Origin: Paramacrobiotus metropolitanus
Taxonomy: Eukaryota > Tardigrada > Eutardigrada > Parachela > Macrobiotidae
Direction of reading: 5' to 3'
Length of the DNA: 64,000 bases
NCBI RefSeq assembly: GCF_019649055.1
Contig: NW_026570243.1
Span: forward strand, 62,001 to 126,000
Within the stretch, counting starts at the first letter, position 1, and every line of letters starts with the position of its first letter. A program made the translations under genes and the position numbers. A model generated the notes under the pieces. That model made no database searches and was not told the origin of the DNA. It saw nothing but the letters and a program-made list of their open reading frames with translations. Shown here piece after piece: positions 894 through 62,609 of this stretch.

Positions 894-2362
894 ATGATGG
901 ACGGAAAGATGACCAATCTATCCGGATATCTCAACGCATCTGCATACTATTTAAACGAAACCGCGATGCTGGGTACAACAAACGCCAGCAACACCACTGG
1001 AGATAAACTGACAACTTCTTGGTTGATGGGCACATCCACTACCACACTGCTGACCAACTGCGGCGTGCTCCTGCTATTCCTGCGCGACAAATCCCTGCGC
1101 ACGCCCTTCAACGTGTACATCATAGCGCTGCTGGCCACCAATGTCGTCTACACCGGCACCACCGCGACATTGAAAATCCTCCAATACTCGCACGGCGCCT
1201 GGTGGATGGGGATTCCCGCCTGCACCATGAACCTGTACTTCGTGTACATCTTTGGCTCATACGCCGTTCATCTTCATCTGCTGATCACTTTGAACCGCAC
1301 CTGGGCCTTGTTCTGGCCGGTGTCCTACCGTAACCGCCATTCGACAACGATGGCTGTATGTCTGTGTGTGGGAATGTTCCTGTATCTCAATGCTCTGGTT
1401 GTGCCGGGTCTGGTCATCGATGCGCTGCACTATCGTGTTCCCGTGGAAATAGGTAATTGTATAGTTGAAATCAAATTCGAAAGGTCTCCAGTTTTAAGCG
1501 CCGAAGCAATTTTATTAGCCAAATCTAGCACAAATTTGAGTAATTGACCATGCAAAAATTTGAAACAAAAACATTATTTTTTTAAAAATAACTGTATAAT
1601 CTAGCTATTAAATCATAAATAACAATAAAAAACAAAGGTCTGGTGAACAACAACTGATGAAATGTTATGGCTAAGCAGAAAACCGCTTTTCCGGAAGAAA
1701 GCTTCTTCTGGGACGTTTCTGGAAGAAAGTAATGCAATATATTGTGTCAATCTCAAATTTAACTGTATTATCTATTATTGCGAAAATGGATATACCGTGC
1801 ATGCTTGAATTTCAACCTTAGGTTGCTGGGTGAATCTAAAACAGCAGTTCACATGGGCAACTTTCGTCAACTTCTGGGTGTACGATGCACCAAAAGTCTA
1901 CATTGCCGTATGCTATCCATTCTTGCTTCACCGGCAGTTACGACGGCGACGTATGGCGGCTGTTGCTCGCAAAGCGGGAACAACCGCCGGGTCATCGCAG
2001 CCACCTGGAACCTCCATTCAGCCGCTGTCATCCAATCAGGTGGTTCCGTCCAATCAACCACAACAGCCGGCCAACAATGCCCCGCCTACCGCTCGACCAA
2101 CAGCCGGCAGTTCGCGCTCTTTCGTTGTACTGACGCTGTTCACCGTCAGTGTGGTGGTCTGCTGGCTGCCGAGCACGGTCTACTATGATCTCACCCGCTA
2201 TATTTCACCTGAGAAGATGGCGACCTTTTTAAGATTGCCGGCATGATGTACGCACTGCAGGCCCTGGTTGATCCCGTGTTTGCGTGTTTCAGCTTCAAGA
2301 TGGTGTATGATTATATTGCGTACCTGCGCCACCAATGGGCAGCTGGGCGTGGCAATAAATAA
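894..2362 (+). CDS. Class A GPCR with one intron and a one-base frameshift (receptor 1)
   Basis: Two exons: 894-1452 and 1822-2362, with a 369-bp phase-1 GT-AG intron (1453-1821). The splice falls in extracellular loop 2 and joins VPVEIG to CWVN, restoring the conserved loop-2 Cys. ATGs at 894 and 897 are both possible starts; several N-glycosylation sequons follow. TM1 carries LLTNCGVLLLF, the end of TM3 reads LNRTWALFWPVSY (NRTW for DRY), TM5 contains YDAPKVYIAVCYP and TM6 contains CWLP. After ISPEKMATF the frame breaks in the T-run at 2226-2230, where one base is missing. The next frame continues at once with KIAGMMYALQALVDPVF (TM7, DP motif) and ends at 2360-2362. So the coding potential is full-length apart from one base: either an assembly homopolymer error or a very recent pseudogene. 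It is the only member of the main family here with an intron. Confidence 0.8.
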
Positions 2363-3366
2363 GAAGATGCTTACGCTGGTTTTTGAAAGCAATAGTACGG
2401 CAACTAAGTACAACTGCCCTACATGCCCTGAGGTTTGTGGATTGCTGAAACGTGCGGAGTAATGCCACACTGGAATGTCATCAGAGTAGTCTGATTCGTT
2501 CAAAACTCTCCTATGTTTTTAGAATATCCGTTGTCGCGGTCTGTTTTCTCCTTTGCCAGGTATTTAATAATTATATCATTGCGGGATTTTCGGTTATTTT
2601 CTGCCATTCTCGCGGGCAGTCGGAAAACGATTTTTATCCTAATGTAAATTATTCACGAGTTTCTAGCGATTTATTAATTTCGCTCGATATTTCGTAACGC
2701 GAAATTTTCTTTATGTGCGCCTGTTTGATTATAAGATTAGCCTTGCGATGCGTCTGTTTTGCTCTCACTTGGCCGTGCTACAAGTACTAGTACTTTGCTA
2801 CATATTAGCGACACTTATGTAATCATTCCTCATGTGATTACTTGCACAACAAAGCTGTAACATCCGTAGGGAATAACCTAGCGCTCCGCGCCGGTGCACT
2901 TAAATCAGTGTTGCTTGAAATAGTGACATGTTGAAAACTCCAAGAAGATCGCATCACTGAGCAGGGCCATGTTATCAGAAATGACTTTAGAAGAGAAGCT
3001 CATAATAAGGGCACTTAAGTTTATTTGAATTTGCAATTGTGCGGCGGCAGATAACACTCTGATGCCGCTATGTACGTCCTTTTTTTACAGCATCCTGAAT
3101 CCCTGGACAGAAAGATTTCTCAGCTCAAATTAAACAAGAATTCCTCAAATGTGTACACTGTAAGCAGCAGATAAAACTAAGAAGAACAGTATAATATGTA
3201 TGTACAACAGCCTATATTTAACTTTGAGGTACATACTTGGACCATTTATCCTGTTGCAAATTGCAACCAAATCAAGCACGCATTAGGCCAGCGCAAACAG
3301 CAAAAATAAAGGTCAAACCACGCAATGGGTAATCAGACGGTCGTGTAATACCCAGGAATAGTTTCT
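2363..3366. other. Spacer, nothing recognised
   Basis: AT-rich sequence with only short random-looking open frames. No repeats or RNA genes noticed. Confidence 0.4.
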
Positions 3367-4352
3367 TTAATGTGCGCCAATGATCTGATTGTTTTCGTTT
3401 CCCCGATTGACAAGACCGTCGCCAGCGCAAGTATAATTGCTTTTCAAATCGTTTATGATTCCATAGTTGCTTCTGTAAGCGTAAACTTGCGGGGATCAGT
3501 AATTTGCCCCAATCATCAGATACAAAGATGTGCCTTGCATTCAACGTTTTGTGAGCCCAGTACCAACACTTTCCCAAAGAAACTATATATGGTTAATCAA
3601 GCAAATAACCTTAGCAGAAACGATATTTACGGGAGTTCTACTTAGTGCACCTCAAGTGTTCCTTTATCTGATTGACGCGGGTTGTTATAGCGACCTTTTC
3701 TGGCATTTTCGCACATTTTAGGAATCATTATGTAATTATATTTGCCTATTAAATGTACTCACGGGATCAGGCTGCACCACTATCAGACCGAGCGCTGCCT
3801 TGTCCCAACCGGGCACCGCACACGTTGCGTCGAACATGCGAGCAGCGTCCGCGACTTTTTCCGTGAAACAAACTCTGTGGTGCAGTTTTACCAAGCAGGT
3901 ACACTAAAATTTTCTATTGATAGCCAGAGAGGAAATGCGGCGTCTGCTTCCGATACAGTCGACAAAACCAGAGTGGACAACTTAACATAGTGCAATTTCT
4001 TCGAGCTTTGTTTTCCTAGTAACACAGTCTCTCTGTGCTCCGATGATTGTGTAAAAATCTTCATTAATTAGGGTGAGCTACTGCGCATAAAAATTATAAG
4101 TTTAACCCTTGACAATCTTTAATTTTTTCGGTAGCAAGCGGCCTGGCGTTAGGTTCTGGTGAATGAATTTGAGTGGATTCTGGACGAAGGAAAAATATTT
4201 CCCGGAAACCGCAATTGTGTAGTAATTTATTTGTTGGATACTGCCTCCTGTTTTCAACTGACTAGCTTTCTCTGACGAACAAGACAGCTCACCGGATGAC
4301 TTTGCGAGATCCATAATTGCCGGTAGGCATTTTCCACCGCACTTGTAATTTC
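3367..4352 (-). CDS. Possible multi-exon minus-strand gene, Cys-containing, unrecognised
   Basis: Three segments look coding and are bounded by good splice signals. Exon A (4293-4352) follows acceptor CCACGCAG, encodes NYKCGGKCLPAIMDLAKSSG and ends at donor GTGAGC. Exon B (3763 to about 3872, or 3903) encodes VCFTEKVADAARMFDATC then AVPGWDKAALGLIVVQPDP and ends at donor GTGAGT. With the 3872 start, exon A (phase 1) and exon B are in phase. Exon C (3367-3472) follows acceptor CTTACAG, contains NYGIINDLKSNYTCAGDG and ends IIGAH-stop. The phases of B and C do not match, so another exon is probably missed, or C is wrong. The Cys pairs and a glycosylation sequon suggest an extracellular protein. 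No family recognised. The whole model is inference from splice motifs and amino-acid composition. Confidence 0.3.
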
Positions 4353-4578: not shown

Positions 4579-5586
4579 ATGAACGGAGATAATGCCAACC
4601 TATCGAATTACAATGTACATCAAGCGTTATTCAATGAGACTCTAAATGGAAAAAATTTCACCAGTAACGTTTTTTCGACAACTTGGATTTTGGGCACCAC
4701 CATCGCAACGTTGTTGAGCAACTGCGGAGCGCTGATCTTGTTTTTGGCTGACAGATCTCTTCGCACGCCTTTCAATGTGTATATTATTTGCCTGTTAACT
4801 ACAAATATAATCTTCGCAGCAATGGACGGTTCGTTTAAAATCGTGACCTTTCCCTACGGGCGTTGGTGGCTCGGAGAAACGGCATGCTTTGTTCACGTGT
4901 ACTGTGTTTATATTTTCACTGCCCTCGCCGTGCACATCCACCTCCTGATCACGGTCAACCGTTCATGGGCGCTTTATTTGCCATTTTCCTATAAAAGCCA
5001 TCACACCACCGCACTGGCGTGGTGGCTGTGTTTTGGCACGATAATTTATTTGCATGTGATGCTTCTACCGGGTGTCGTCATCGATGCTGTGTACTTCCGT
5101 ATTCCGAAAGACAAAGTTTGCCGCTTGGATGTATCGCGGCAGTCTACGTGGGTGACAATTATTACGGTGTGGGTTTTCGACATACCGAAACTGGTGATTC
5201 CAGTTTCCTATCCTGTCCTGCTTCACAAAGAGCTGCACCGACGGAGAACGGTGCGCACCACCTGGCAGATGACGCCACTCACGCCAGTATCCAGTCTTCC
5301 TAGCTCGGTACAACCTGTACCACGACGCATGCGAGGCAGTTCGCGACCATTCATCGTATTAACGTTTTTCGCCATCAGCGTGGTTGTCTGCTGGATACCG
5401 GCCATGGTGTACTATGAACTGATCCGCTTTATTCCGCCCACGAAGCTGGAGACTCTATGGAAAGTTCAGAGCACGTTGTTTGTGTTACAGAGTCTACTGG
5501 ATCCGGTTTTTGTTTGTTTGAGCCTCACGAAAGTGTACCGCTACATATTTTCTTTGCGGAAAAGGTTCGGTAGGCTTCAGGTTTGA
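4579..5586 (+). CDS. Class A GPCR, intact, 335 aa (receptor 2)
   Basis: Single-exon receptor starting at ATG 4579. The N-terminus (1-33) has sequons NLS, NET and NFT. Approximate TM segments: TM1 34-57 (LLSNCGALILF), TM2 66-88, TM3 103-126 starting at Cys103, TM4 144-166, TM5 190-214, TM6 257-280, TM7 295-317. Cys103 can pair with Cys181 in loop 2. The DRY position reads NRSW (127-130), TM6 has CWIP (271-274) and TM7 has LLDPVF (DP 308-309). Loop 3 is about 40 residues and Pro/Thr/Ser-rich. It lies about 2.2 kb downstream of receptor 1, in the same orientation and clade. The inverted, frameshifted receptor at 12.8 kb is a close relative. Ligand unknown; presumably plasma-membrane and sensory or peptide-responsive. 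Confidence 0.93.
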   Translation: MNGDNANLSNYNVHQALFNETLNGKNFTSNVFSTTWILGTTIATLLSNCGALILFLADRSLRTPFNVYIICLLTTNIIFAAMDGSFKIVTFPYGRWWLGETACFVHVYCVYIFTALAVHIHLLITVNRSWALYLPFSYKSHHTTALAWWLCFGTIIYLHVMLLPGVVIDAVYFRIPKDKVCRLDVSRQSTWVTIITVWVFDIPKLVIPVSYPVLLHKELHRRRTVRTTWQMTPLTPVSSLPSSVQPVPRRMRGSSRPFIVLTFFAISVVVCWIPAMVYYELIRFIPPTKLETLWKVQSTLFVLQSLLDPVFVCLSLTKVYRYIFSLRKRFGRLQV

Positions 5587-8685: not shown

Positions 8686-9684
8686 ATGGATGCCACTGAA
8701 CTCCTTAATACCTCTACACGGAGTATCAACGGCACCCTGCTTCTGGAAAGGTCAACAAATGCTACTGCTGACGTTTCGCCGTCAGCTGGCATAATTGTTT
8801 TGACTGTGTTCACACTGCTGCTCAACGGCGTCGTTCTCTATCTGATGCTACAGGGAAATGTTCGGCGTGCGCCTTTTGATATCTACATTATTTTTCTCCT
8901 GGGTACCAACTTTCTGTACACACTGATCTTTAATCCACTGAAACTGATGATCTTGTCCCATAATTACCGTACTGGCAACTCAACATGCACCTTTTATCTG
9001 TACTGCATTCATCTCCTTGTCGCTATCATCTTGCACACTCACTTATTAATTGTTATCAATCGCGCATGGGCAATTTTCTTGCCGGTGTCCTACCGGGATC
9101 GTCACAACAGCCGCATCGCATGGTTGTCGTCCCTCATAACCGTTCTCTACGTGCATGTCCTGTTTTTACCGGGTCTCATCCTGGATGCGTTGTACTACCG
9201 TGTCCCTCTAGAAAAAGGCTGTTTTTTGAATGCCCCGCCGCAAATAGTGTGGTACCATTTCGTCGGTGTGGTTCTGTTTGACTTTCCAAAATTCTGTATT
9301 CCAGCTGCTTACCCATTCCTGATATGGAAAATTATCCGCACGCGAAGAATCAACCGTACACGATTAGCGGTACAACAAGCCGGTATTCCGCATCCACCGG
9401 TAGCTGTTAATGCGCATCAGGACAACGGCCGCACCCGACCGTTCTACGTTTTCAATCTCTTCACATTCTCGGCGCTGGTGTGCTGGATTCCCGCCGCGAT
9501 CTACTATTACATGTTGGACTTTATCCCACCCAGCCAGCTGAAGTCGCTGCGGGAAGTAGTGAACCTACTGTTCTCACTGGAACTCATACTGGATCCAATT
9601 TTCGTTCTCTGCAGCCTTACCAAACTAAACGAATACATTAAGCATGAATGGAACCGGATTCGAGGCACATTTCGAAATAGATAA
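8686..9684 (+). CDS. Class A GPCR, intact, 332 aa (receptor 3, divergent)
   Basis: Single exon from ATG 8686. The N-terminus has four sequons (NTS, NGT, NAT and so on). TM1 is about 35-56 (the usual NCGVL is NGVVL here). Cys101 opens TM3 and can bond to Cys179 in the loop YRVPLEKGC. NRAW is at 125-128, followed by AIFLPVSYRDRH. TM6 has CWIP at 266-269 and TM7 has LILDPIF (DP 303-304). Loop 3 is short and basic (RTRRINRTR). It is more divergent than the group-B receptors at 4.6 and 15 kb but keeps all structural landmarks. It faces away from the upstream palindrome and converges with receptor 4, with only 322 bp between their stop codons. Confidence 0.92.
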   Translation: MDATELLNTSTRSINGTLLLERSTNATADVSPSAGIIVLTVFTLLLNGVVLYLMLQGNVRRAPFDIYIIFLLGTNFLYTLIFNPLKLMILSHNYRTGNSTCTFYLYCIHLLVAIILHTHLLIVINRAWAIFLPVSYRDRHNSRIAWLSSLITVLYVHVLFLPGLILDALYYRVPLEKGCFLNAPPQIVWYHFVGVVLFDFPKFCIPAAYPFLIWKIIRTRRINRTRLAVQQAGIPHPPVAVNAHQDNGRTRPFYVFNLFTFSALVCWIPAAIYYYMLDFIPPSQLKSLREVVNLLFSLELILDPIFVLCSLTKLNEYIKHEWNRIRGTFRNR

Positions 9685-10006: not shown

Positions 10007-11020
10007 TCACCGGGGTTGCTGGTGAACGGCCATCCTTGGCCGGTAATTACAGCTTCCCCACAGCGCCACCATATAGCTGCTTAGGTTGCGGAAATTCAAG
10101 CAGAGTATTATGGGATCTAGCAGAGATTGTAGACTGAAAAGGGTATTTGCCATACTGCGGAAAGTGTTTAGCCTGGCTGGTGGCACAAAGTCAAGCAATT
10201 TGAAATAAATCATGCTCGGGATCCAGCAGACCGTTACGCATAAGGTCAACAGCGTCAGCATAACAAACGGCCGCGACCGCTCCTTCTGGCGGCGGTTGAC
10301 GTTCTTCGGTCTCTCGGGTCCTTCGGTCTCATGACTGGTTGTTGCATCGGTCCGAAAAATGGACAATCTTCTCCGACGAACCGCTTTCCATAACAGCACA
10401 GGATAACATGCGAGAATCAACGCTTTGGGTACGTCGTAGACAGCAACAGACATGAACATGTACCAGGCGAAATGCGCTTTTGAATTCATCCAACATCCTT
10501 TTTCTTCTGGAATTCGATAATAAGCAGCATCCAGAACTATACCAGGCAGCAGTACAATGTGCAGATAAATGACCACGCACAAACACACCAGCCAGGCAAG
10601 GCCGAAAGTGTGACGCGCTTTATATGACAGCGGCCAAAACAGTGCCCATCCGCGAACGATACTGATAAGGAGATGGATGTGTACCGTAACAGCGGAGAGA
10701 ATGTAATTGAAGTAAAGATTAATCGTGCATGCCACGCTTCCAATCCGCCATGAATTGTATGGCAAAGTGACGATTCGTAGGGGATTAGTTATTCCGACGT
10801 AGAGGACATTACTGGCCAACAGAGCAATGAGGTACACGTCGAAAGGCGTTTGCTGTTTTCTTCCGTGCAGGAGGATTGCCAGCACTCCACAGTTAAAAAG
10901 TAGAGTTACCACTGTGAAACTGATCAGAGCGGGGGAAAGCGAACTCTCAACCGCATTTGTCATAGTAAAAGTGGAATTCACTGCCGCTGCCGACGAATTT
11001 AGCGATATGTTACTGGTCAT
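10007..11020 (-). CDS. Class A GPCR, intact, 337 aa (receptor 4, group A)
   Basis: Single exon, ATG at 11020, TGA at 10007-10009. It begins MTSNISLNSS, almost the same start as the receptor at 26.9 kb, which fixes the start codon. The TM1 core is LLFNCGVLAIL. Cys98 (TM3) pairs with Cys176 (EEKGC). The DRY site reads VRGW (122-125), so the Arg is kept while the preceding Asn is Val. TM6 CWIP is at 265-268 and TM7 LLDPII has DP at 302-303. Loop 3 is rich in Glu, Arg and Lys (about 215-250). It is the only intact minus-strand member of group A; the others are plus-strand at 18-39 kb, so it was probably moved by an inversion or an inverted duplication. Confidence 0.93.
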   Translation of the reverse strand: MTSNISLNSSAAAVNSTFTMTNAVESSLSPALISFTVVTLLFNCGVLAILLHGRKQQTPFDVYLIALLASNVLYVGITNPLRIVTLPYNSWRIGSVACTINLYFNYILSAVTVHIHLLISIVRGWALFWPLSYKARHTFGLAWLVCLCVVIYLHIVLLPGIVLDAAYYRIPEEKGCWMNSKAHFAWYMFMSVAVYDVPKALILACYPVLLWKAVRRRRLSIFRTDATTSHETEGPERPKNVNRRQKERSRPFVMLTLLTLCVTVCWIPSMIYFKLLDFVPPARLNTFRSMANTLFSLQSLLDPIILCLNFRNLSSYMVALWGSCNYRPRMAVHQQPR

Positions 11021-12770: not shown

Positions 12771-13780
12771 TTATTCAACCCGCGGATTGCTGCACCTTTT
12801 CCGCGAAGAAAATATGTAGCGGTACACTTTCGTGAGGCTCAGACAAACAAAAACCGGATCCAGCAGGCTTTGCAGTCCAAACAAGGTGCCCTCGACTCTG
12901 TGCAGGATTTCCAGATCAGCTGCCGGAATAAAGCGGAGCAGTTCGTAATACACTGTCCCCGGTATCCAGCAGACAATTACGCTGATGGCAAAACAAGTTA
13001 ACACGACGAACGGACGAGAACCTCCTCGCTTGGGTTGCGCTGGATGCTGTACCAGGCCTGGGCCGGATCTAATGTTTCCGTGGGACTACGCGCAACATGC
13101 GCAGCAGCCATCGTCTTCCGCCTGCGTAACTCTTTGTAGAGCAGAACTGGATAGGACAGCGGAATCAGCAATTTTGGCACGTCGAACACCCCCACCGTGA
13201 TAATTGTGGCCCATGTAAACTGCCGTGATAAATTTAATCGGCAACCTTTCTCAAGCGGAACGCGATAGAACGCAGCATCGATCATAATACCAGGTAGAAG
13301 CATCACATGTAGATAAATTACCGTACCGAAACACAACCACCAGGCCACCGCACGGGAATGGTGGTTTTTATATGCAAAGGGCCAAAATAATGCCCATGCG
13401 CGGTTGACCGTAATCAGAAGGTGAACGTGAATGACAAACGCGGCAACGACATAAACACAGTACAGGTGCATCATACATGCTGTTTGCCCAGTCCACCAAC
13501 CGCCATAAGGATAAGCCAGGATTTTCAGCGGCCCGTCCACACCCGCAAAAATTATATTGGCAGTTAACAGAAGGATAATGTACACGTTGAAAGGCGTCTG
13601 AAAAGACCTGTCAATCGCAAACAACAGAAGGGCACCGCAGTTGCTCAACAACGCTGCGACAGTTGTGCCCAAAAGCCATGAGGTGGCGAGTGCCGCATCG
13701 GTGGAGCCCTTTTCATTCAGCGTGTGATTCAGTGGCAATGGATTCGCGTAGTAAGACAGGTTTGCAATAACCGCGTCCAT
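12771..13780 (-). CDS. Class A GPCR with a one-base frameshift in loop 3 (receptor 5, group B)
   Basis: ATG at 13780. The first frame runs to 12998 and covers TM1 to TM5 plus loop 3: LLSNCGALLLF, then VNRAWALFWPFAY (NRAW), loop-2 VPLEKGC, and VFDVPKLLIPLSYP. It then breaks near 13023-13028, where one base is missing (AGC GAG GA- GGT TCT). The second frame resumes at once with GSRPFVVLTCFAIS, CWIP in TM6 and LLDPVF in TM7, ending at TAA 12771-12773. Everything else is intact and close to receptor 2 at 4.6 kb, including the C-terminal VYRYIF. The single lost base may be an assembly error or a fresh null allele. Confidence 0.8.
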
Positions 13781-15013: not shown

Positions 15014-16057
15014 CTAGTGCTCGGCAGCATCCTTCTGCTGTGCCACCTGACAAGTACCACACATCCTCCCCAAACGCATCACGTGGTGGTACACCTTACT
15101 CAGACTCAGACAGACAAAAACCGGATCCAGTAGACCTTGCAGCGAATATAAAATGTCCGCGACTTTCCCAAACGTCTTCAGCCTGTCCATCGAAACGAAA
15201 TTCAGCAGTTGGTAGTACATCAGACTCGGCATCCAGCAGACGATAATGCTGATGGTAAATAAAGTCAACACAATGAATGGTCGCAAATGGCTCCGTTGCG
15301 GACGCGTGGTGGCGGTCGCCATGTCCGCTGGCACCGGAGGTGTCGACGTCATCGTCAACTCCGCAAACTGCTGAGCGGCCACAATCCGTCTTCTTCGACG
15401 CATTTCTTTTCTCCAGAGTAGAGGATAGCAAATGGGAATGAATACTTTTGGGACAATAAATACCAACCACGAGGTAAACGTTGCCCAGGCGAACTGCGGC
15501 GAAGAGTCCAACCAACAACCTTTTTCAACAGGGATGCGATAGTAGACCGCATCCAGTAAGATGCCAGGTAAAAGCAGCACATGCAGATAAAATACCGTGA
15601 CGCCAGAAACCCACCACGCCACGGCGGTGGAGTGGTACTTCCGGTAGGACAGCGGCCAAAACATTGCCCAGGCGCGGTTCAATGTGATCAGCAAGTGGAA
15701 ATGGATGGCCATGGCGGCGATGATGTATACGGTGTAGATGCGCAATGTGCATACGGCGGCTCCCAGCCGCCAGTCGGGGTACGGATACGTCAACAGTTTC
15801 AGCGGACCATCGACGGCGACAAAGACAATATTGGCAGACAGCAAAGCCATGATATAGACGTTGAACGGCGTGCGGAGAGATTTGTTGATGATGAACAGCG
15901 AAAGAACTCCACAGTTAGCTAATAGCGTTGCTGCGGTTGTGCCAAAAAGACAGGAGATGGCGAATGGGTAAGGAGTCGCGTTGCTGGCGTTGGTCATCCC
16001 CTTGAGCAGGGTTTGATTCGCGTATCGTTCCAGCAGGTAGGAAATGTTGGCCTCCAT
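15014..16057 (-). CDS. Class A GPCR, intact, 347 aa (receptor 6, group B)
   Basis: Single exon. ATG 16057 is chosen because MEANISYLLE aligns with METNFSEMLE of the paralog at 24382; an in-frame ATG at 16138 would add 27 non-conserved residues. Landmarks: TM1 LLANCGVLSLF, Cys103, NRAW 127-130 with AMFWPLSYRKYH, loop-2 Cys181 (VEKGC), basic loop 3 (MRRRRR), CWMP 274-277, LLDPVF with DP 311-312. The last part of the gene (15065-15267, TM6 to TM7) is nearly identical to the paralog's, while the region just before it differs at many sites. That points to gene conversion. Both genes lie on the minus strand, 8.3 kb apart, with unrelated receptors in between. Confidence 0.93.
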   Translation of the reverse strand: MEANISYLLERYANQTLLKGMTNASNATPYPFAISCLFGTTAATLLANCGVLSLFIINKSLRTPFNVYIMALLSANIVFVAVDGPLKLLTYPYPDWRLGAAVCTLRIYTVYIIAAMAIHFHLLITLNRAWAMFWPLSYRKYHSTAVAWWVSGVTVFYLHVLLLPGILLDAVYYRIPVEKGCWLDSSPQFAWATFTSWLVFIVPKVFIPICYPLLWRKEMRRRRRIVAAQQFAELTMTSTPPVPADMATATTRPQRSHLRPFIVLTLFTISIIVCWMPSLMYYQLLNFVSMDRLKTFGKVADILYSLQGLLDPVFVCLSLSKVYHHVMRLGRMCGTCQVAQQKDAAEH

Positions 16058-18529: not shown

Positions 18530-18634
18530 AAAATGCAGCCGAGGTGGAGGAGGTGGAGGATAGCGTCCTGGTCTGCCGTGGCTGCCAAAATGCAGCCGAG
18601 GTGGAGGATAGCGTACTGGTCTGCCGTGGATAAT
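18530..18634 (+). repeat. 57-bp imperfect tandem duplication at receptor 7's 5' end
   Basis: A unit beginning AAAATGCAGCCGAGGTGGAG occurs twice (18530-18586 and from 18587). The first unit also carries an internal GAGGTGGAG doubling. Its length is a multiple of three, so the frame is kept. A single, diverged unit is found upstream of the sister pseudogene near 22069. Confidence 0.8.
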
Positions 18635-19362
18635 GCCACCAATAATCTTTCGTTGCATCTTTCGGCAGCAAGAATGAATACAACAGCAACTACGGTAAAT
18701 ATGAGCGAGAACTCACTTTCCCTCGGGCTGGTCAGTTCTACAATCGTGACCTTATTGTTTAACGGCGGAATTCTTGGTGTCCTCCTGCGCGGAAGAAAGC
18801 AGCAAACGCCCCTGGATGTGTACATGACAGCGCTGCTTTTGAGCAACATCCTCTTCGTCGCCATCAACAATCCCCTGAAAATGCTCACTTTCCCGTACAC
18901 CTCATGGTGGATTGGCAGCGCAGCATGCATGCTTTACATTTACTGCAATTACGTCATCTCAGCGATTACGATACATGTCTATCTCTTAATCAGCTTCTGT
19001 ATTGGATGGGCACTGTTTCGGCCGTTGTCTTATAAAGCGCATCACACTTCCGTCTCTGCCTGTTTGCTGTGGTTATGCACGGTAATTTATTTGCATATTG
19101 TACTGCTGCCTGGAATAATCATGGACGCCACCTATTATCAAAGTTTAGAGGATAAAGGATGTACGGTGGACTGGAAAGCACAGTACACCTGGTACATGCT
19201 GGTGGCAGTCGTGGTATATGATGTACCAAAATTGCTAATTCCCGCAGTTTATCCGCTGCTGCTATGGAAAACAGTACGTGGAAAAACGCGTGGCATTTCT
19301 TGGACTGGTACGACAACCTGTGGCACTGAATGCGCCGGGAGGTCAACAAACATCACACCCCG
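18533..19362 (+). pseudogene. 3'-truncated class A GPCR (receptor 7, group A)
   Basis: TM1 to TM5 are present: SLGLVSSTIVTLLFNGG, then SFCIGWALFRPLSYKAHH, loop-2 EDKGC, and YDVPKLLIPAVYP. Homology to the 22.1 kb copy stops abruptly at about 19361 (shared CACACCCCGAC), and TM6, CWIP and TM7 are missing. The frame stays open to 19474 with unrelated residues. The DRY position reads CIGW, so the conserved Arg is gone. The start is unclear. ATGs at 18533, 18590 and 18674 are in frame. The codon aligned with the family's usual start appears to be GTG, and the first two ATGs lie in a 57-bp tandem duplication. It is probably dead. A tRNA-like unit lies 190 bp downstream. Confidence 0.8.
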
Positions 19363-19548
19363 ACGTTATTATTACTGTCGACCGAACATGAAACTTTCAG
19401 AGTTGTGTATCGTCATGTGTTTGTCTGGTTGTTTGGGCAAACACAAGCGACATTTTCATGTAACTGTGAATTGAACACGTATTGGTACTGTGAGCGGAGA
19501 AGCGGCTCACGTACAGCGACAAAATCTTTCAAAGGATTTCAACGTATT

Positions 19549-20813: not shown

Positions 20814-21860
20814 ATGGATGGCAACATAACAACAGCTCAAAATCTGTCTACCCTCTCGGTACACCGCAATAACTCAATGGGATCTTTCCCACCGCCGTAC
20901 AACACATCAGTTGGACGCTCATTACCTGCCAGTCTCTTCAGCACCGGGATACTTGCTTTGACGTTCAATCTCCTGGCGCTGCTCTTAACGCTGACCAAGA
21001 CCTCACTGCGGTCGCCCTTCAATATGTACGTTGTAGCTTTGACGTGCAGTAATGTGTCGTTTGTCTCTGTGAACCGTATAATGCTCGCCATCGCGGACTC
21101 TTACGCCCCGTCTTGGCTGGGCCCTACCCTGTGCACCTTACGCTTGTATTCCTTGTACGTATTCGTCCCTCTGATCTACCACTTTCATTTGCTGATCACG
21201 CTAAACCGCGCTTGGGCGCTTTTCGTACCGGTCTCTTACCGTGACCGGCATAACAGCACCACCGCCGGCATACTTTGCGGCGCGGTGGTGACTTATGTAC
21301 ATGCGTTTATGCTGCCGCAACTGGTTCGCGATCGCTTATACTATCGTCTGCCGTTGGAGAAGGGCTGCCAGCTGAATACTGCCAGTCAGTTTGCTCTAAC
21401 ATTGTTCACGACCATTTGGGTTTTCACCGTACCCTGTCTGATAATTTATGTTGCCTATCCCATCCTGCTGTGCAAGATGTTGTTCCGGCGACGGACGACG
21501 AATAGGCCGAATAACAGTACCGCTAACCATGAAGCTTTCAACCGTCCCTTCTTACTGTTGACGTTGTATACCTGCAGTACGATGGTGTGCTGGTTGCCTA
21601 GTATTTGCTACTACACTATTCTCAGCAGTTCCACTGTCCACATGGGCCCGGTCGTGTTCCAAATCACATCAAATCTGTACAGTTTACAACCGATCCTTGA
21701 TCCACTAATATTTTGTCTCACTTTGGACGATGTACGGGTTTACGCAATCCGACTCTTCGGCAGAACAAGAAATAATCAAGTTGGCGTTCCGAGTGACACC
21801 GCCCAGCGGCCATCGGGGAGCATGGAGAATCCGAACGCTGCGCCTATGACGTCCTCATAA
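20814..21860 (+). CDS. Class A GPCR, intact, 348 aa (receptor 8, divergent)
   Basis: Single exon from ATG 20814. The long N-terminus (1-38) has sequons NIT, NLS and NTS. TM1 is about 38-60 (FNLLALLLTL in place of NCGVL), Cys107 opens TM3, NRAW is at 131-134 with ALFVPVSYRDRH, loop-2 Cys185 (LEKGC), TM6 CWLP 259-262 and TM7 ILDPLIF (DP 296-297). Loop 3 is short (RRRTTNRPNNST). The C-tail is long and Ser/Pro-rich. Sequence around TM2 (VNRIMLAIADSYAPSW) differs from both main groups. It sits between the truncated group-A gene and its decayed sister, so it was either present before or carried along in that duplication. Confidence 0.93.
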   Translation: MDGNITTAQNLSTLSVHRNNSMGSFPPPYNTSVGRSLPASLFSTGILALTFNLLALLLTLTKTSLRSPFNMYVVALTCSNVSFVSVNRIMLAIADSYAPSWLGPTLCTLRLYSLYVFVPLIYHFHLLITLNRAWALFVPVSYRDRHNSTTAGILCGAVVTYVHAFMLPQLVRDRLYYRLPLEKGCQLNTASQFALTLFTTIWVFTVPCLIIYVAYPILLCKMLFRRRTTNRPNNSTANHEAFNRPFLLLTLYTCSTMVCWLPSICYYTILSSSTVHMGPVVFQITSNLYSLQPILDPLIFCLTLDDVRVYAIRLFGRTRNNQVGVPSDTAQRPSGSMENPNAAPMTSS

Positions 21861-22029: not shown

Positions 22030-23080
22030 AGCTTCTGGATCTGGGCACAGTATCGATGATCCTTAAATAAAATGCAGCCGGGTTGGAGGAAAGCGTATTG
22101 GTCCGGCGTGACTAAAACAACTAGTAATCGTCCGCTGCATTTTTCGGCATTAAGAAAGAAACCAACAGTAATTTCGGCAAATATGAGCGAGAACTCACTT
22201 CGCTCGGGCGGATCAGTTCTGCCATCGTGATTTTATTGGTTAACTGGAGTTCTTGCTATTCTCCTGCGTGGAAGAAAACAGCAAACGCCCCTAGGCGTAT
22301 ACATTACAGCGCTGCTATTCAGCAACAATACAGCGCTGCTTCGTCGCTGTGAACTGGAGTCGCCGCGTGCATGCTTTACATATATACTTAAGTTACATCA
22401 TTTCAGCGATTACACAACAGGTCGTTCTCTGGATTAGCGTCAACATTGTATGGGCATATAAAGCGCGTCCCACTTCCGTCTTTGCCTGTCTGCTGTGTTT
22501 ATGCACGATCTTCGCATTATTTATCTGCATATCTCATTTATTTGCTGCCTGGAATAATCCTGGACGGCACTTATTATCAAAGTCTGGCGGATAATGGATG
22601 TACATAGGACGATGAACTGCAAGGCACAGCACACCTGCCACATGATGTGCCAGAATTGTTAATTTTCGTCGTTTATATGGTGCTGCTATGGAAAGCAGTT
22701 CGTGGAAAATCGCTTGGTACAACATTTCTTGGACTGGTACAACAACCAGCGGCAATGAATGCGTCGCCAGATCAACAAACGTCACACCCCGACAAAAAGA
22801 ACGTTCGCGGCCGTTTGTTGTGCTGACATTGCTGGCCCTATGTGTTACGATTTGCTTGATTCCGACTTCCGAGCCATGATTTATTACATATTCCTACGGG
22901 TAGGTTTCGTTTCACCGGCAAAGTTGGAGACTTTGCGCAGGGTGTCGAGTATTCTTTTTGGTCACAGGGTTTGCTTGACTCGATATTTCTTTGCCGAAGT
23001 TTCCGAAAACTAAGCAGCTATGTTGCTGCGTTGTGGAAAGCTGGGATAATCGAAATGTCGTGCACCAGCAACCGTTGTAA
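22030..23080 (+). pseudogene. Decayed class A GPCR (receptor 9, sister of receptor 7)
   Basis: Recognisable fragments lie in different frames, with stops and small deletions: SENSLRSG near 22190, ILLRGRKQQTPLGVYI near 22255, CLLCLCTIF near 22480, PGIILDGTYYQSLADNGC across 22548-22600, RSRPFVVLTLLALCVTIC from about 22808, then TM7 with LLDSIFLC near 22968, and an end that matches family C-termini (QQPL-stop, 23078-23080). Most of TM2 to loop 1 is deleted (around 22330-22360). Unlike receptor 7 it still has TM6 and TM7. Similarity to receptor 7 extends upstream of the coding region (CCGCCGATCGC...TTCTGGAT), which shows a segmental copy, not a retrocopy. Confidence 0.85.
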
Positions 23081-23317: not shown

Positions 23318-24382
23318 TCAGTTATTGTATTGTAACTTTTCGCATAAATCTTGGCGAGCGGCCTTGTATGGCTCTGCCTGCGAGACGCACACCCTCCCCA
23401 AACGCATCACGTGATGGTACATCTTACTCAGACTCAGACAAACAAAAACCGGATCCAGTAGACCTTGCAGCGAATATAAAATGTCCGCGACTTTCCCAAA
23501 CGTCTTCAGCTTGTCCATCGAAACGAAATTCAGCAGTTGGTAGTACATCAGACTCGGCATCCAGCAGACGATAATGCTGATGGTAAATAAAGTCAGCACG
23601 ATGAACGGTCGCAAACGGCTTCGTTGTGGACGCGCCGGGGCGGTCGTCATGTCCGCTGGCGTCGGAGGAGTCGACGTCATCGTCATCTCCGCAAACCGTT
23701 GACCGGCCGCTATAATTGCTCTTCGACGCATTTCTTTCCTCCAGAGAAACGGATAACAAATGGGAATGAACACTTTGGGACCAATGAACACCCACCACGA
23801 CGTAAACGTTGCCCAGGCGAACTGCCGTGAGAAATCCAGCCAACAGCCTCGTTCAACAGAAATACGATAATACACCGCGTCCAGCAGGATTCCGGGTAGC
23901 AGCACCACATGCAGATAGAACACCGTGCCGCCGCATAAACACCACGCCAGGGCGGTGGAGTGGGAGTTACGGTAGGACACTGGCCAAAACATTGCCCAGA
24001 CGCGGTTCAGGGTGATCAGCAGATGGAAATGAATGGCCATGGCGGCGATGATGTAGACGCTGTAAATGCGCAACGTACATACTGCCGGTCCCAGTCGCCA
24101 GTCGGGATACGGGTAGGCTAGCAGTTTCAACGGACCATCGACGGCGGCAAAGATTATGTTGGCAGATAATAGAGCCATGATGTAGACGTTGAACGCCGTG
24201 CGAAGAGATTTGTTGATGAGAAATACTGCAAGAACTCCGCAGTTCGTTGCCAGGGTCGCGACGGTTGTGCCAAGAAGGCAGGAGATGGCGAACGGAACAT
24301 TTGGAGCGCTGCTGGCGTTCATCCCATCCTTCAGCGTTTGATTTGCGTGTTCTTCCAACATTTCTGAAAAGTTAGTTTCCAT
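23318..24382 (-). CDS. Class A GPCR, intact, 354 aa (receptor 10, group B)
   Basis: Single exon, ATG 24382, TGA 23318-23320. TM1 TNCGVLAVF, Cys102, NRVW 126-129 with AMFWPVSYRNSH, loop-2 Cys180 (VERGC), loop 3 with MRRRAIIAAG, CWMP 273-276, LLDPVF (DP 310-311). It is the closest paralog of the gene at 15.0 kb. The block 23393-23595 (TM6 to TM7) is about 98% identical to that gene by eye, then identity falls sharply upstream. After the shared block the C-tail is different and longer (ends KLQYNN), so the conversion or exchange tract ended just after TM7. Confidence 0.93.
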   Translation of the reverse strand: METNFSEMLEEHANQTLKDGMNASSAPNVPFAISCLLGTTVATLATNCGVLAVFLINKSLRTAFNVYIMALLSANIIFAAVDGPLKLLAYPYPDWRLGPAVCTLRIYSVYIIAAMAIHFHLLITLNRVWAMFWPVSYRNSHSTALAWCLCGGTVFYLHVVLLPGILLDAVYYRISVERGCWLDFSRQFAWATFTSWWVFIGPKVFIPICYPFLWRKEMRRRAIIAAGQRFAEMTMTSTPPTPADMTTAPARPQRSRLRPFIVLTLFTISIIVCWMPSLMYYQLLNFVSMDKLKTFGKVADILYSLQGLLDPVFVCLSLSKMYHHVMRLGRVCVSQAEPYKAARQDLCEKLQYNN

Positions 24383-38271: not shown

Positions 38272-39807
38272 ATGGCACATAATCTTTCGCTAAACATTTC
38301 AATTAGAGACGAATTAGAGACGAATTTAACCTTAAATACGGCATATGCGATCGAGAACTCTTTATCTCGCGGCCTAATCATTTCCACAGCCGTGACCTTG
38401 TTCTTTAACTGTGGAGTCCTTATCATTCTCCTATGTGAGAGAAAACAACTACGGCCTTTTGATGTGTACATCATTGCACTGTTATGCAGCAATATTCTCT
38501 ATGTCGGATAGCCAATCCTCAAAATATTGTTGTTCCTTCACCGTATACTTCCTGGCCCATTGGAAGAGCGGCCTGCACGATTTATATTTACTGCATTTAT
38601 GTTGTCGCAGCCCTTACCGTAAATATTCATCTGTTCATCAGCATCAGTCGCGGTTGGGCATTATTTTGGCCGCTGTCATAAAAAGCGCGCCATACTACGG
38701 TCCTCGCCGGGCGCTCCGTTTGGGAACGATGATCTACCAGCATATCCTTTTACTACCCGGCATCATTGTGAAAGCCACTTATTATCAAAGTCCAGCTGAT
38801 AAAGGATGTTGGGTGGATCCATCAGCGCGGTTTACCTGGTACATGTTCATAACCGTGACTGTGTATTGTAGCGATAGAAATTAGATGTACCGCCCGTAGG
38901 AGTGTTAATTACTTTTCTCTACTGTTTATTGGTTGTTGTGTTATGAAGATCAGAATCCTTATTTTCCTACTTTTACTGACCGCATCTCACGGTCAGAAAC
39001 ATCTTGAAATTAGTCTTGCTGCAGCTTGCTCTGAACTTGCTCCACGCCTTCCGCGCTTCTTGCTAATGCGCTTCCCGCGCTTCTTGCTCCCGTGCTTATG
39101 CACTTCTTGCTCCTCAGCTTGCGTTGCTCGCTGATTCTTGCTACGTTGTACTTGCTAATAAACACTTGCGAATGACCTAATGACCTTGTGTTGTGTTGCG
39201 TAGTCGCTATGGGATGATCGTGCATCTCCCATCATTGTCACCCTATAAACGCTAGTCAGCTTCCGGTCAGCATCGCTGCCGACCGTGCCAGCCTTTCCCA
39301 CACTAACAGCCGACAGATCGGGGTAAGGTGGATTAACCAACCCAACAGCAGTCAAACCGGCGGCTGTTACAGTATGATGTGCCCAAGCTGCTTATTCCTG
39401 CTTGTTATCCGTTGCTGTTATGGAAAGCGGTACGAAGGAGGACACTAGCCAATTATCGCATTGACACCGTAACCAGCTACGCTGAAAGAAGTGGAAAGTC
39501 AGCGAGAGCTGCATCTCGCCAGATGGGGCGCTCGCGACCCTTCGTTGCCCTCACACTGCTGACCGCATGTGTTACGGCCTGCTGGATTCCCAATATGGTT
39601 TATTACATATTGGTTGGCTTCATTTCACCAGCCAGACTGGAGACTTTAAGCAGTGTTGGAAATACTCTTTTTAGTCTCCAGGCATTGCTGGATCCGGTAT
39701 TACTCTGCTTAAGTTTTGGATACTGGAAGAGATATTTGCCTACATGGTGCAAAGGCAGGATAAAGCGACCAAAGCTGGTCGTCAGCCAACAACCGATGCA
39801 ACAATAG
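38272..39807 (+). pseudogene. Class A GPCR pseudogene split by a solo LTR (receptor 14, group A)
   Basis: ATG 38272 (MAHNLSLNIS). TM1 to TM2 are open to 38511. There one A is missing relative to receptor 13 (GGA-ATA-GCC became GGATAGCC), which makes a TAG. Further on, TCATATAAA became TCATAAAAA, turning a Tyr into a stop after the NRGW-equivalent (SRGW). More indels follow near 38700. At 38866 the gene is split by a 505-bp insertion, and the rest (39372-39807: VPKLLIPACYP, ACWIP, ALLDPVL, QQPMQQ) is intact and open. The good preservation of the 3' half suggests the disabling events are recent. Confidence 0.9.
38867..39371. mobile_element. Solo LTR (505 bp) with 4-bp target-site duplication
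   Basis: The insert starts TGTAGC and ends GTTACA, so it has TG...CA ends with the inverted tetramer TGTA/TACA. It is flanked on both sides by GTAT (38863-38866 and 39372-39375), which occurs once at the empty site in receptor 13 (GTGTATGATGTG). An AATAAA signal lies at about 39157. There is no internal coding region. This is the usual result of recombination between the two LTRs of an LTR retrotransposon. The family is not identified. Confidence 0.8.
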
Positions 39808-46632: not shown

Positions 46633-46749
46633 CTACAATAATTATGTGTCTACAATAAGTACAATAAAAATAAGTGCAATAACAATGTCCACAATATGTT
46701 AATGTATACTGTACAGTTAAAATAGGCATGTGGCATTACGTTAACCTTG

Positions 46750-49598: not shown

Positions 49599-49613
49599 AC
49601 AGCACTTTCAGCA

Positions 49614-52463: not shown

Positions 52464-53570
52464 ATGCTGGCAAACAACGACACCCATCCCGGGAATTCTT
52501 CCCTACCGGCCAACATCAATGCGTCAGCCGTGGCCATTAATGTTTGGCATACCTATCACAGCATCATGACACTTTGGTCCGCCACCAGCATCCTGGTTTT
52601 CCTCGCAGCCGCGGTTCTCTTCATCCTGTTACTCATGGTGATCGCCGGGTTGAAAGTACACAAACGCGGTTCCGGCGTCCTGATCATCCACCTAGTTGCA
52701 ATTGAAATGCTGGTCGTCATGGTCCTCTTGCCGTTCCAGTACATCTCCATCTACATCGGCCAGTTCAACATCATCCAAGCACATCACTGCATCTACATTA
52801 AAATTATCCTCCAAATGGCCATCCAAGCCGGGAATTACGCGCAACTGTGTCTGGGATGCAATCGTTTCGTTGCGGCATGTTATCCCCATAGCTACAGGGC
52901 GTGGTCCACCAATCGCGTGCTGGGCGGGATGATGCTGTTGGCGTGGCTAATCCCGGTGGCTATCAGTGTGCCAGATGCACTGGAGGATCATTACAAACTG
53001 ACACCGCCGTGGAACGCCTGCAGCGCCACCACGAACCGCGGTTGGATTATGATACGAGTGACCATGCTGATTCCCATCGGGAATTATCTGCCCATGGCGG
53101 TGACGCTGATCTTGTATATCGTCTTATTGGTGAAACTTAAGCGCGCTTGTGTGTTCGACGCGGCCGGGCCCAACGCCACAGAACTGTCAAAACGCCGGTG
53201 TCGTCTGTTTCAAATGTCGCGGGTCCTGTTTGCTTCGATGCTGTCGTATTGCGTCTGTTATTTCTTCATACAGCTTGTGTTCTATTTGATGCGTCCGTCC
53301 ATTATTAAGGAGATTGTCGTGTTGTGGACGAGGATTGCGCACGTGTGTGCCTATGCCATGACACCGGTAAGGTTACGAAAAGCAACTGTAGTGTTAGATT
53401 CTACTGAAATATTATTTTAACCTGCGTGGTGTATTATAAAGACTATTGTTTCTGTTTTTTAGATATTGTTCTTCGCATTGAATGCCGACTACAGCAATAA
53501 GCTATGGCAAATTTTATCACGCAGAGAGAAAACATCGCGCGATGTCAGCTTGGAACTCGGGCGGTCGTAA
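52464..53570 (+). CDS. Class A GPCR of a different family, two exons, 336 aa (receptor 16)
   Basis: Exon 1 is 52464-53366 (ATG 52464, MLANNDTHPGN). A 96-bp phase-0 GT-AG intron (53367-53462) sits in TM7. Exon 2 (53463-53570) adds ILFFALNADYSNKLWQIL and ends LGRS-stop. TM1 is about 37-62, Cys109 opens TM3, NRF at 133-135 replaces DRY (GCNRFVAACYPHSYR), and the conserved TM4 Trp is W161. Loop-2 Cys186. TM6 has SYCVCYFF and no CW-x-P, and TM7 has MTPILFFALNADY. It lacks the family signatures of its neighbours (no WALFWP, no YLH-LLLPG). It is nearer to ordinary rhodopsin-like amine or peptide receptors, but the subtype is not recognisable. Confidence 0.9.
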
Positions 53571-54477: not shown

Positions 54478-55440
54478 ATGTTCTTCATGAATCATTCAAA
54501 CGCTTCTTTTAATCAGACATTCGACTGGGACTCCGGGGCGACCATCCAGACCATCATCTCCTTTACAACCGTCGCTGTTAACGGCTTTGCGCTGGGATTG
54601 TTGATCCAAGTTCACATGCACCACAACGCTCCCTTTAATATTTATCTCATGCACCTGCTGTTGGCTAACATCTACTTGACTCTGCCGGACGCTTGCCGCA
54701 TCATGGGTTACATAAACTACCCCGGTTACTTCGGCTCGGTGTGGTGTCGTCTGGCGATGTACAGCGATGAAATCGGCAGCGCCATGGTAAAGCACGCGCA
54801 CCTCCTTATCAGTGTCAATCGCATCTGGGCGCTGATTTTCCCTGTCTCCTATCGCAACTGCCACACGACGACGGTGGCGCTATTGATTTGCGCGAGCGCT
54901 GTTGTCTGCTGTCACGTGGTGTTACTACCGCTCTTAATTCGCGATTATCTGTTTTATCAGTACCCGGAGAGCGCCGGGATCTGCGATACGAATGATGTGG
55001 CGCAGAGCGTGTATTCCTTTTCCGTGTACGTTATCTGCTTTATGTTTCCGAATGTGTTCATGTACGTCTCATATCCGTTTCTCTGCTGGAAATACCGCCA
55101 TGGTCGCCGCGTCTTCGTGCATTTTGCGGTATCATATGCGAAGAGCACGACGACATCGGGGGGAAGTCGACGGCATTCGGAAAGGTCACCGCCAAGCCTG
55201 GCAAAGGATCATCAGCGTGGTTTCAGGGTGCTGGCGGTGTTGACGGTGACGATCTTCGTGTGCTGGACGCCATCGATGGTTCGACAAGTTCTGTTGAGAG
55301 TCTGCGGTTTCGGCTTTGATCTTCTGCAGCGGATCGGCGACACCTTGTATGCGGTGCAAGGGATCCTGGATCCAGTATTATTCGCCTTGGTGTTAGGAGA
55401 TCTGCGCAAAAGATTCACGCAACTGTTTAAATGCAACTGA
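54478..55440 (+). CDS. Class A GPCR, intact, 320 aa (receptor 17, divergent)
   Basis: Single exon from ATG 54478 (MFFMNHSNAS). TM1 is about 22-44, Cys90 opens TM3, NRIW 114-117 with ALIFPVSYRNCH, loop-2 Cys169 (ESAGIC), TM5 FPNVFMYVSYP, loop 3 Ser/Arg/His-rich, CWTP 262-265, ILDPVLF with DP 298-299, and a short C-tail ending KCN. Loop 1 has YPGYFGSVWC instead of the group-B W-W-x-G. It shares the NR-x-W and DP signatures with the cluster but is distant from groups A and B. It is 0.9 kb downstream of receptor 16, in the same orientation. Confidence 0.93.
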   Translation: MFFMNHSNASFNQTFDWDSGATIQTIISFTTVAVNGFALGLLIQVHMHHNAPFNIYLMHLLLANIYLTLPDACRIMGYINYPGYFGSVWCRLAMYSDEIGSAMVKHAHLLISVNRIWALIFPVSYRNCHTTTVALLICASAVVCCHVVLLPLLIRDYLFYQYPESAGICDTNDVAQSVYSFSVYVICFMFPNVFMYVSYPFLCWKYRHGRRVFVHFAVSYAKSTTTSGGSRRHSERSPPSLAKDHQRGFRVLAVLTVTIFVCWTPSMVRQVLLRVCGFGFDLLQRIGDTLYAVQGILDPVLFALVLGDLRKRFTQLFKCN

Positions 55441-61334: not shown

Positions 61335-61603
61335 CTTCCTGCTGATTTTTACCCACCGTAAGGGTTCAGTAAGTATTAAATTAGCCGTGAGTCTCGTGAG
61401 CACGGAGCTAGCTGCATGCGTAACCCTTTGTTATCGAACACATATCGTGCAAAACAATACCGCACCTACAATTATGTAAAGTTGTCTCCCAAAACACTTA
61501 TAAAATATAAAGAACCTCTGGCTGCATAGTTTGGTGTAGGTTTACTATGTTCAAACCACTTTCGCTCGTTTTCCGGAATTCCATTCGGTTATCAGATTCA
61601 GCA

Positions 61604-62609
61604 ATGAACACTACGCTGATGAACTTTACGTCTGCCACACCGAACGCCAGCGGCTCGCACGCGCCCCCTGTACCCGATCTTATCATTGCATCGTATGTGG
61701 TCTTGGTCGTTCTACATATTACAGCGCTCCCTCTTAATTCTGTACTAGTCGTTGCATTTCTCAGGTCGGACACCCGAAAAGTGCCCTTTGACTTTTATTT
61801 TCTCAGCCTTCTGTCCGTCAGCATCTTCTTCGACTCCACATCCCTGGCGTTCTCGGCCTTCAGCGCTTTTGCACCGAACCTGAATATTCGTGTTCCTGGA
61901 TGCGTCTTCTACGTGTACACCGTCTATTCATTCAACATCGGCCAACCGCTGAATCATGCCGTCATCGCTCTCAACCGCATCTGGGCCATGGTACACCCGA
62001 TCAGATTCTGTGATTTCCAAAGTAGGCGCGCAGTCGGCCGCGTGATCGCCATTATGTGGATCGTGGCCCACGCCATCGCCCTCACATCTGCCACCATCAC
62101 AGCGTTACCGCCCGGCAAGCGCAATACACCAAGTTCAGTTTCATTATCCAAGCAACTCCCTCAATTGTGGAAAGTATTTCGGAGAATTTCCAGAAGATCC
62201 TCGGACTCGTGTCGTTCCTCATCACCTCGACCTCCGCATCCACCTCAAACCGCAGCGGTACGGGTGGTCAACCAACGGGTTCCAGTAATCCCACGGACCA
62301 GAGCGGCCAACAAAATTCACAGCCGGTAGGCGTTCCAGAACCGAACGAAGTCCGGGAGAGGGAAGCAGCGCAGGAAAACCAGGCGAATTGTTCATGGGCG
62401 TTTTGGGAGTGAGCATCGTCATCTGCTGGGGTCCGTATGCCATCTACTTTGGTTTCCAGAATGTGTTCCACTACTTTAGTGCCCAGGCCATTGCCGTGGC
62501 TATAGTGCTGACCACCTGCCAAAATAATGCTGACCCGATTTTGCTGTTCTTGACCGTGCCCAAGTGGAGGAAAGCCGTTACTCATTACTTTGCACGGAGC
62601 AGGGTCTAG
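61604..62609 (+). CDS. Class A GPCR with two one-base frameshifts (receptor 18, divergent)
   Basis: Start ATG 61604 (MNTTLMNFTS, sequon-rich as in relatives); an in-frame ATG at 61547 is an alternative. Frame 1 covers TM1 (LPLNSVLVVAFL), TM2, Cys at the start of TM3 (VPGCVFYVY), NRIW with AMVHPIRF, and TM4 (IMWIVAHAIAL). One base is lost near 62120 (CCCGGCAAGCG). The next frame gives YTKFSFIIQ, TM5 with KILGLVSFLITS, and a Gln/Glu/Asn-rich loop 3. A second base is lost near 62388 (GCGAATTG), and the third frame gives TM6 MGVLGVSIVICWGPY and TM7 NNADPILLF, ending TAG at 62607-62609. No Cys is visible in loop 2, unusual for the cluster. It may be a pseudogene or carry uncorrected assembly errors. 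Confidence 0.75.

Follow-up and report, generated by a model that had tools for sequence, protein, structure and literature searches.

In class A G-protein-coupled receptors (GPCRs), activation collapses the sodium pocket (2x50, 3x39, 7x45 and 7x49) and draws transmembrane helix (TM) 7 towards TM3, with 7x49 gaining a contact to 3x43 and 6x40 and 6x41 switching away from 3x43; position 3x43 is mainly hydrophobic in the class, and the mutants L3x43A/R have raised basal activity (PMC6954041). In the gonadotropin-releasing hormone (GnRH) receptor GnRH1R, a direct polar contact joins N2.50 to D7.49, and reverting either residue or both nearly abolishes signalling (PMC7576152); in proton-sensing receptors, D2.50 and D7.49 are thought to titrate (PMC7948426). 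GPR18, with A3.39 and D7.49, has high basal activity (PMC6539512), and among chemokine receptors changes in the sodium site can go along with receptor radiation (PMC6037435). As to gene clusters, 12 receptor genes of a sea star lie within 140 kb in both orientations (PMC5442662), and the gene families restricted to two tardigrade genomes include 18 GPCR clusters (PMC5531438). Here we describe a cluster of class A receptor genes from the tardigrade Paramacrobiotus metropolitanus (64,000 nucleotides of contig NW_026570243.1, positions 62,001 to 126,000 of the forward strand; hereafter the window). In this family the standard class A core is altered: the acid has moved from 2.50 to 7.49, His stands at the hydrophobic-lock residue 3.43, and Tyr7.53 is missing.

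Positions 894–62,609 of the window hold 18 loci, that is, 17 members of one family (R1–R15, R17 and R18) and an unrelated class A receptor, R16 (Table 1). For the census we used stop-to-stop frames and then a profile, built from the ten intact frames, that was run against all six frames; the junctions were read individually. The original prediction for this DNA, a dense cluster of about 17 class A receptors, agrees with the count, and the Pfam family 7tm_1 is found far above chance in ten proteins (nine family members and R16; 42–89 bits against a cut-off of 30.5; E-values of 9e-11 to 4e-25). The predicted mixed orientation is also seen (13 family loci on the forward strand; R4, R5, R6 and R9 on the reverse), as is the coexistence of intact, truncated, frameshifted and insert-split members: ten family frames are intact (R2, R3, R4, R6, R8, R9, R10, R11, R12 and R17) and seven loci are broken (R1, R5, R7, R13, R14, R15 and R18), R14 by an insert. 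The intact frames encode 320–354 residues, with two to four N-glycosylation sequons within the first 50. Their single-exon status is deduced, from the DNA, from the full length of the frames; as a description of the whole cluster, "single-exon" is contradicted by candidate GT-AG introns at two loci, R1 (369 nt) and R16 (96 nt). Some of the single-base frame changes (e.g., the one in R1 beside a T run) could be assembly errors.

We set the Ballesteros-Weinstein numbering on R6 via its canonical residues and then read it across the alignment. The spacings in R6 between 3.25 and 3.50 (25 residues), 1.50 and 2.50 (28), and 2.50 and 3.25 (27) equal those of the beta-2 adrenoceptor; the register of TM4 may be off by one, such that H4.55 could be H4.54, with no Trp at 4.50 either way. 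Motifs were counted in the 16 readable family loci, 15 of which have TM6–TM7, with R15 (too decayed) and R16 left out; in the alignment rows of R14 and R5, overlapping pieces produce an artefact, namely two letters at a single position of each row. N2.50 is present in 15 of the 16 loci (R18 has Ser), H3.43 in 15 (R7 has Tyr), H4.55 in 15 and H3.41 in 13; where TM6–TM7 can be read, D7.49 occurs in all 15 loci, Q7.45 in 14 and Y7.53 in none. No intact member departs from N2.50, H3.43 or D7.49, and among the TM columns only that of D7.49 has one invariant acid across the ten. When the 174 TM positions of the intact members are ranked from the slowest, N2.50 is 4th, H3.41 5th, H3.43 6th, H4.55 7th and D7.49 12th, and positions 3.50 (38th), 3.49 (64th), 6.44 (82nd), 3.39 (92nd) and 7.53 (99th) are faster. 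H3.43 and D7.49 persist even in R13, R17 and R18, which have just 20–32% identity to the other family loci. The fixed signature of the family is N2.50, H3.43 and D7.49 (with H3.41, H4.55 and Q7.45), a set that the original prediction overlooked, as it did the loss of Y7.53, W4.50 and F6.44.

That prediction had instead described NR-x-W for DRY, DP for the NP of NPxxY, and CW-x-P as shared by nearly all loci, and had read the NR-x-W/DP pair as a common non-standard activation switch. DP stands at 7.49–7.50 in 15 of 15 readable family loci, and CW-x-P is retained in 14 of 15 (R13 has FWTP); NR-x-W is found in only 10 of 16, the others being R4 (VRGW), R7 (CIGW), R10 (SRGW), R11 (SLGW), R13 (NRIC) and R14 (SRGW), so "nearly all" does not hold for it. 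Because DP is fixed and NR-x-W drifts, the proposed switch is half right: a common altered core exists, but the constant partners of DP are N2.50 and H3.43. Arg3.50 is present in 14 of 16 loci, missing from R7 and from the intact R11, and residue 3.49 in the intact members is N, V or S. Position 3.39 never has Ser in the intact members; R4, R10, R11 and R12 have Thr there, and the remaining six a hydrophobic residue (Ala, Ile or Val). Together with N2.50, Q7.45 and D7.49, this makes for an altered sodium site. Y5.58 is present in ten of ten.

Two observations on individual positions may be recorded here. R11 combines an intact frame with Leu at the G-protein-coupling Arg position 3.50 and is possibly a non-coupling or early-decaying member. 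In eight of the ten intact members (R2, R3, R4, R6, R9, R10, R11 and R12), a charged residue, K5.51, follows Pro5.50 at a transmission-switch position.

Membership in class A is supported by residues and by predicted folds. N1.50, C3.25, P5.50, C6.47-W6.48-x-P6.50 and P7.50 are present in all ten intact members; the usual D2.50, D/E3.49, W4.50, F6.44, N7.49 and Y7.53, which are strong tendencies of the class and not strict requirements, occur in none of them. The AlphaFold2 model of R2, calculated with 20 aligned rows from the window, has a predicted local distance difference test score (pLDDT) of 84.1 and a predicted template modelling score (pTM) of 0.81; that of R6, with ten rows, has a pLDDT of 72. 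The R2 model matches muscarinic M5, 5-HT1B, TAAR13 and other class A structures, with TM-scores (target) of up to 0.87 among the matches listed; such matches indicate class A as the modelled fold without naming a subfamily. Active complexes make up many of the PDB matches listed; this may do no more than mirror the structures that have been deposited, and we do not use it as evidence. 7tm_1 outscores the nematode profiles Srx, Srsx and Srbc in all nine family proteins tested, although Srx reaches its cut-off in four of them (R1, R5, R6 and R8), unlike Srsx and Srbc, which reach theirs in none of the nine; for the first piece of R13 the order is narrowly reversed, with Srx at 40.9 bits and 7tm_1 at 40.4 bits. 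A viral origin was considered and rejected: the nine Foldseek matches of the R6 model to viral proteins with E <= 0.001 have 12–16% identity and are GPCR-like or unnamed. Pattern scans of viral and prokaryote contig collections (1, 14 and 9 matches) gave no relatives and are uninformative on animals. R16, in residues counted directly, lacks NR-x-W (NRFV), DP (TP) and the family His; as its core differs from that of the family, the cluster also houses another kind of class A receptor.

The family is a tandem birth-and-death set of short class A receptors, and the local birth and death that had been predicted is supported by the tree, by duplication and by the broken copies. In a tree of 16 family loci plus R16 (17 in all; R15 was too decayed to include), one group comprises R1, R2, R5, R6 and R9 (support 82) and another R4, R7, R10, R11, R12 and R14 (support 77), the group that R15 matches by blastn; both groups include loci of both orientations. 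R3, R8, R13, R17 and R18 are long branches, with R13 and R18 joined at support 93 and the other deep nodes weak (47–61). R6 and R9 are 81% identical and R12 and R14 88%, and the duplication that includes the latter two spans about 2.8 kb; the 505-bp element that splits R14 is probably a solo long terminal repeat (LTR). As such, a tandem expansion of class A receptors is of an ordinary, known kind.

The more recent duplicates are under purifying selection. We calculated the ratio of nonsynonymous to synonymous divergence (dN/dS) by the Nei-Gojobori method for all 45 pairs of intact members; the values are pairwise averages and not estimates for single branches (e.g., that of R11). Synonymous sites are saturated in 26 pairs, and the remaining 19 give dN/dS of 0.18–0.39, the highest value being that of R4/R17 (dS 2.1). 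The seven pairs with dS < 1.5, which involve R4, R6, R9, R10, R11 and R12, give 0.21–0.26; such low ratios indicate that these duplicates have been retained as proteins, and with all 45 pairs in view the claim of purifying selection is narrowed to these six genes. For the recent pair R6/R9, dN is 0.056 at TM positions and 0.188 elsewhere. Among pairs with pieces of broken loci, ten gave dN/dS of 0.17–0.41 and one was saturated. Constraint on the divergent members is suggested by their slow sites and intact frames.

Our tentative reading, to which we give somewhat less than an even chance, is that these proteins act through G proteins as sensors of many ligands, probably environmental ones, and that they use D7.49 with N2.50 in the off state and with H3.43 in the on state. 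In the off state D7.49 would be paired with N2.50; on activation TM7 would shift towards TM3 and bring D7.49 to H3.43, and the buried His-Asp contact would take over the work of the sodium pocket and of Tyr7.53. Such receptors would be expected to depend on sodium weakly or in an altered manner, to have appreciable basal activity and possibly to respond to pH. It is the residues that are observed; from them we infer the contacts, the basal activity and the effects of pH or sodium. A further-reaching version, that the lineage swapped the sodium/NPxxY switch for an H3.43–D7.49 contact and so gained sodium-independent, perhaps proton-tuned signalling across a lineage-specific sensory family, strikes us as improbable.

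A chemosensory role is plausible on circumstantial grounds, namely the form of the cluster, the N-glycosylation sequons of the short N-terminal segments and the rates of evolution within the helix bundle. The outer half evolves faster than the inner (mean rates 0.97 vs 0.77; permutation P 0.002), the pocket positions and the borders of the outer half being of our own choosing. The pocket shows a weak excess in rate over other TM positions (P 0.038) and none over the remaining outer positions (P 0.18), and we give this test little weight; because the pocket does not exceed the other outer positions, we regard the chemosensory reading as likely, not as established.

Several further points weigh against the reading of these proteins as environmental sensors with an H3.43–D7.49 switch. 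The closeness of H3.43 and D7.49 is predicted from residues, and the His residues at 3.41 and 4.55 evolve just as slowly, so that H3.43 may do no more than help TM3 to pack on TM4. With four of ten intact members retaining a hydroxyl (Thr) at 3.39, cation binding near D7.49 may persist. The members share ancestry, and their fixed residues therefore count as a single event. The saturation of 26 of the 45 pairs limits the evidence for purifying selection to the more recent duplicates (no usable pair includes R8, and those with R2, R3 or R17 all have dS > 1.5), and R11 keeps an open frame yet lacks Arg3.50.

The same residues could be explained more conservatively: N2.50/D7.49 would be a compensated exchange like that of the GnRH receptor, H3.43, H3.41 and H4.55 would be packing that replaces Trp4.50 between TM3 and TM4, and activation would otherwise be that of an ordinary class A receptor. 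We give this a slightly lower chance than the His-Asp reading. GnRH1R functions with N2.50/D7.49, the loss of W4.50 accompanies H3.41 (13 of 16 loci) and H4.55 (15 of 16), and Y5.58, P5.50, C6.47, W6.48 and P6.50 are retained in all ten intact members. However, GnRH1R retains and needs Tyr7.53, which is missing from 15 of 15 loci here; active class A structures have a contact between 3.43 and 7.49 (PMC6954041); and H3.43 stays where H3.41 is gone (R13, R14 and R18, all broken).

Two other accounts concern what the proteins do. That they are internal peptide or amine receptors that expanded in the lineage, and not a chemosensory set, is suggested by their best-ranked solved relatives by sequence and fold, which are mostly aminergic and peptide receptors. 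Asp3.32 is the amine anchor of amine receptors, and it is missing from 15 of the 16 readable family loci, R17 alone having it; 17 tandem copies, 7 of them broken, also resemble sensory receptor sets (cf. PMC5442662), and we regard this account as rather unlikely. We think it very unlikely that the receptors are decaying or non-signalling, with the motif losses reflecting relaxed selection. Seven of the 17 family loci are indeed broken, R11 lacks Arg3.50 and R7 both Arg3.50 and His3.43, R4/R17 has a dN/dS of 0.39 at dS 2.1, and 26 of the 45 pairs are too diverged to judge; but the seven intact pairs with dS < 1.5 have pairwise averages of 0.21–0.26, and the residues of the signature belong to the slowest-evolving positions across the ten intact members.

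Table 1. Receptor loci and associated features of the cluster (positions in the window).
Feature	Position	Strand	Description
R1	894..2362	+	Family receptor with two exons and a phase-1 candidate intron (GT-AG, 369 nt) at 1453-1821; frame shift at ~2220-2240
R2	4579..5586	+	Intact single-exon receptor; AlphaFold2 pLDDT 84.1, pTM 0.81
R3	8686..9684	+	Intact single-exon receptor
R4	10007..11020	-	Intact single-exon receptor; VRGW instead of NRxW
R5	12771..13780	-	Frameshifted receptor; nearest relative R2
R6	15014..16057	-	Intact single-exon receptor; AlphaFold2 pLDDT 72
R7	18632..19474	+	Truncated after TM5; CIGW, Y3.43; start codon uncertain
R8	20814..21860	+	Intact single-exon receptor
R15	22069..23053	+	Heavily decayed copy; piecewise six-frame profile matches; stops in all three frames
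R9	23318..24382	-	Intact single-exon receptor; protein 81% identical to R6
R10	26860..27870	+	Intact single-exon receptor; SRGW
R11	29248..30249	+	Intact open frame; Leu replaces Arg3.50 (SLGW)
Segmental duplication unit around R12	31274..34100	+	Matches 37529-40600 around R14; four pieces, 73.5-83% identity
R12	31953..32966	+	Intact single-exon receptor; duplicate partner R14
R13	35907..36824	+	Divergent family member; in-frame TAG at 36396-36398
R14	38272..39807	+	Broken R12 duplicate: stops, frame changes, split by insert
LTR-like insert	38867..39371	not assigned	505 bp in TM5 of R14, with TG...CA termini and GTAT as the 4-bp target duplication
R16	52464..53570	+	Unrelated class A receptor; E2.50, Q3.43, NRFV, TPILF; candidate intron 53367-53462 (96 nt)
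R17	54478..55440	+	Intact single-exon, divergent family member
R18	61604..62609	+	Most divergent family member; frame changes between TM4 and TM6; S2.50, H3.43, D7.49

For two of the broken loci, the searches add to the table: the six-frame profile search did not find TM6–TM7 downstream of R7, and the blastn matches of R15 are R7, R4, R10 and R11. Just behind R7, at 19549-19621 (+), lies a tRNA-like segment that has a GGTTCGATTCC box and a fold resembling a cloverleaf (z -1.7); ARAGORN makes no call on it, and it is possibly a tRNA-derived short interspersed element. No Rfam match and no tRNA was called in the window. Tandem arrays with 21-bp and 9-bp units follow directly behind R18 (62641-62940). 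A large inverted repeat at 43340-49587, whose arms measure about 2.25 kb and are 98.9% identical, looks like a young foldback or mobile element; between its arms are an open frame (45837-46229, -) with no Pfam match up to E 1 and a tandem array with a 42-bp unit (46755-46897). A palindrome with 343-nt arms, 84% identical and separated by a 1-nt spacer, is found at 49614-50300, and an open frame at 41318-41728 (-) has a signal-peptide-like segment, MAKLAMFVFLVLAVTYASA, and no Pfam match above the cut-off. A scan of positions 1-2000 for bacterial-type promoters gave results near the shuffled expectation.

The combined N2.50/H3.43/D7.49 core without Y7.53 is, as far as we have checked, undescribed, within the reach of the open-access literature and of the spellings we chose; in that literature we found no paper on His at 3.43 in GPCRs, although other spellings of the residue may escape such a search. 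A 43-residue TM3 query gave no match to PDB sequences even at E 10, and is probably too short for phmmer. With ten intact genes, several of them clearly under purifying selection, the family would serve as a natural experiment on which elements of the class A switch can be exchanged, and how, and it would offer receptors in which single reversions probe sodium, pH and basal activity.

In the form of the cluster, the locus is like the olfactory-type clusters of sea stars and sea urchins (ApORs and surreal-GPCRs), which are tandem rhodopsin-like receptors in both orientations (PMC5442662); the likeness is one of cluster form only. The tardigrade-specific GPCR families are a possible match for the receptor family, likened by description only (PMC5531438). 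The oncogenic mutant CysLTR2-L129Q shares a polar residue at 3.43 and is constitutively active (PMC7948404); that change, however, is a somatic mutation to Gln, whereas the His described here is a fixed natural residue that occurs together with the changes at 2.50 and 7.49. With the proton sensors GPR4, GPR65 and GPR68 the family has in common a buried acid at 7.49 in the region of the sodium site (PMC7948426), but those receptors have a D2.50/D7.49 pair and a further buried acid, and the family has one acid there and a buried His3.43. The mammalian type 1 GnRH receptor has the same exchange: it pairs N2.50 with D7.49 and so reverses the usual D2.50/N7.49 (PMC5662886, PMC7576152). When the family is compared with it, the N2.50/D7.49 pair is present in ten of ten intact members, and the DRS/DRx of TM3, W4.50 and Y7.53 are absent: the GnRH receptor has DR at 3.49–3.50, W4.50, Y7.53, M3.43 and N5.58 (PMC5662886), whereas the family has H3.43 and Y5.58 and neither W4.50 nor Y7.53.

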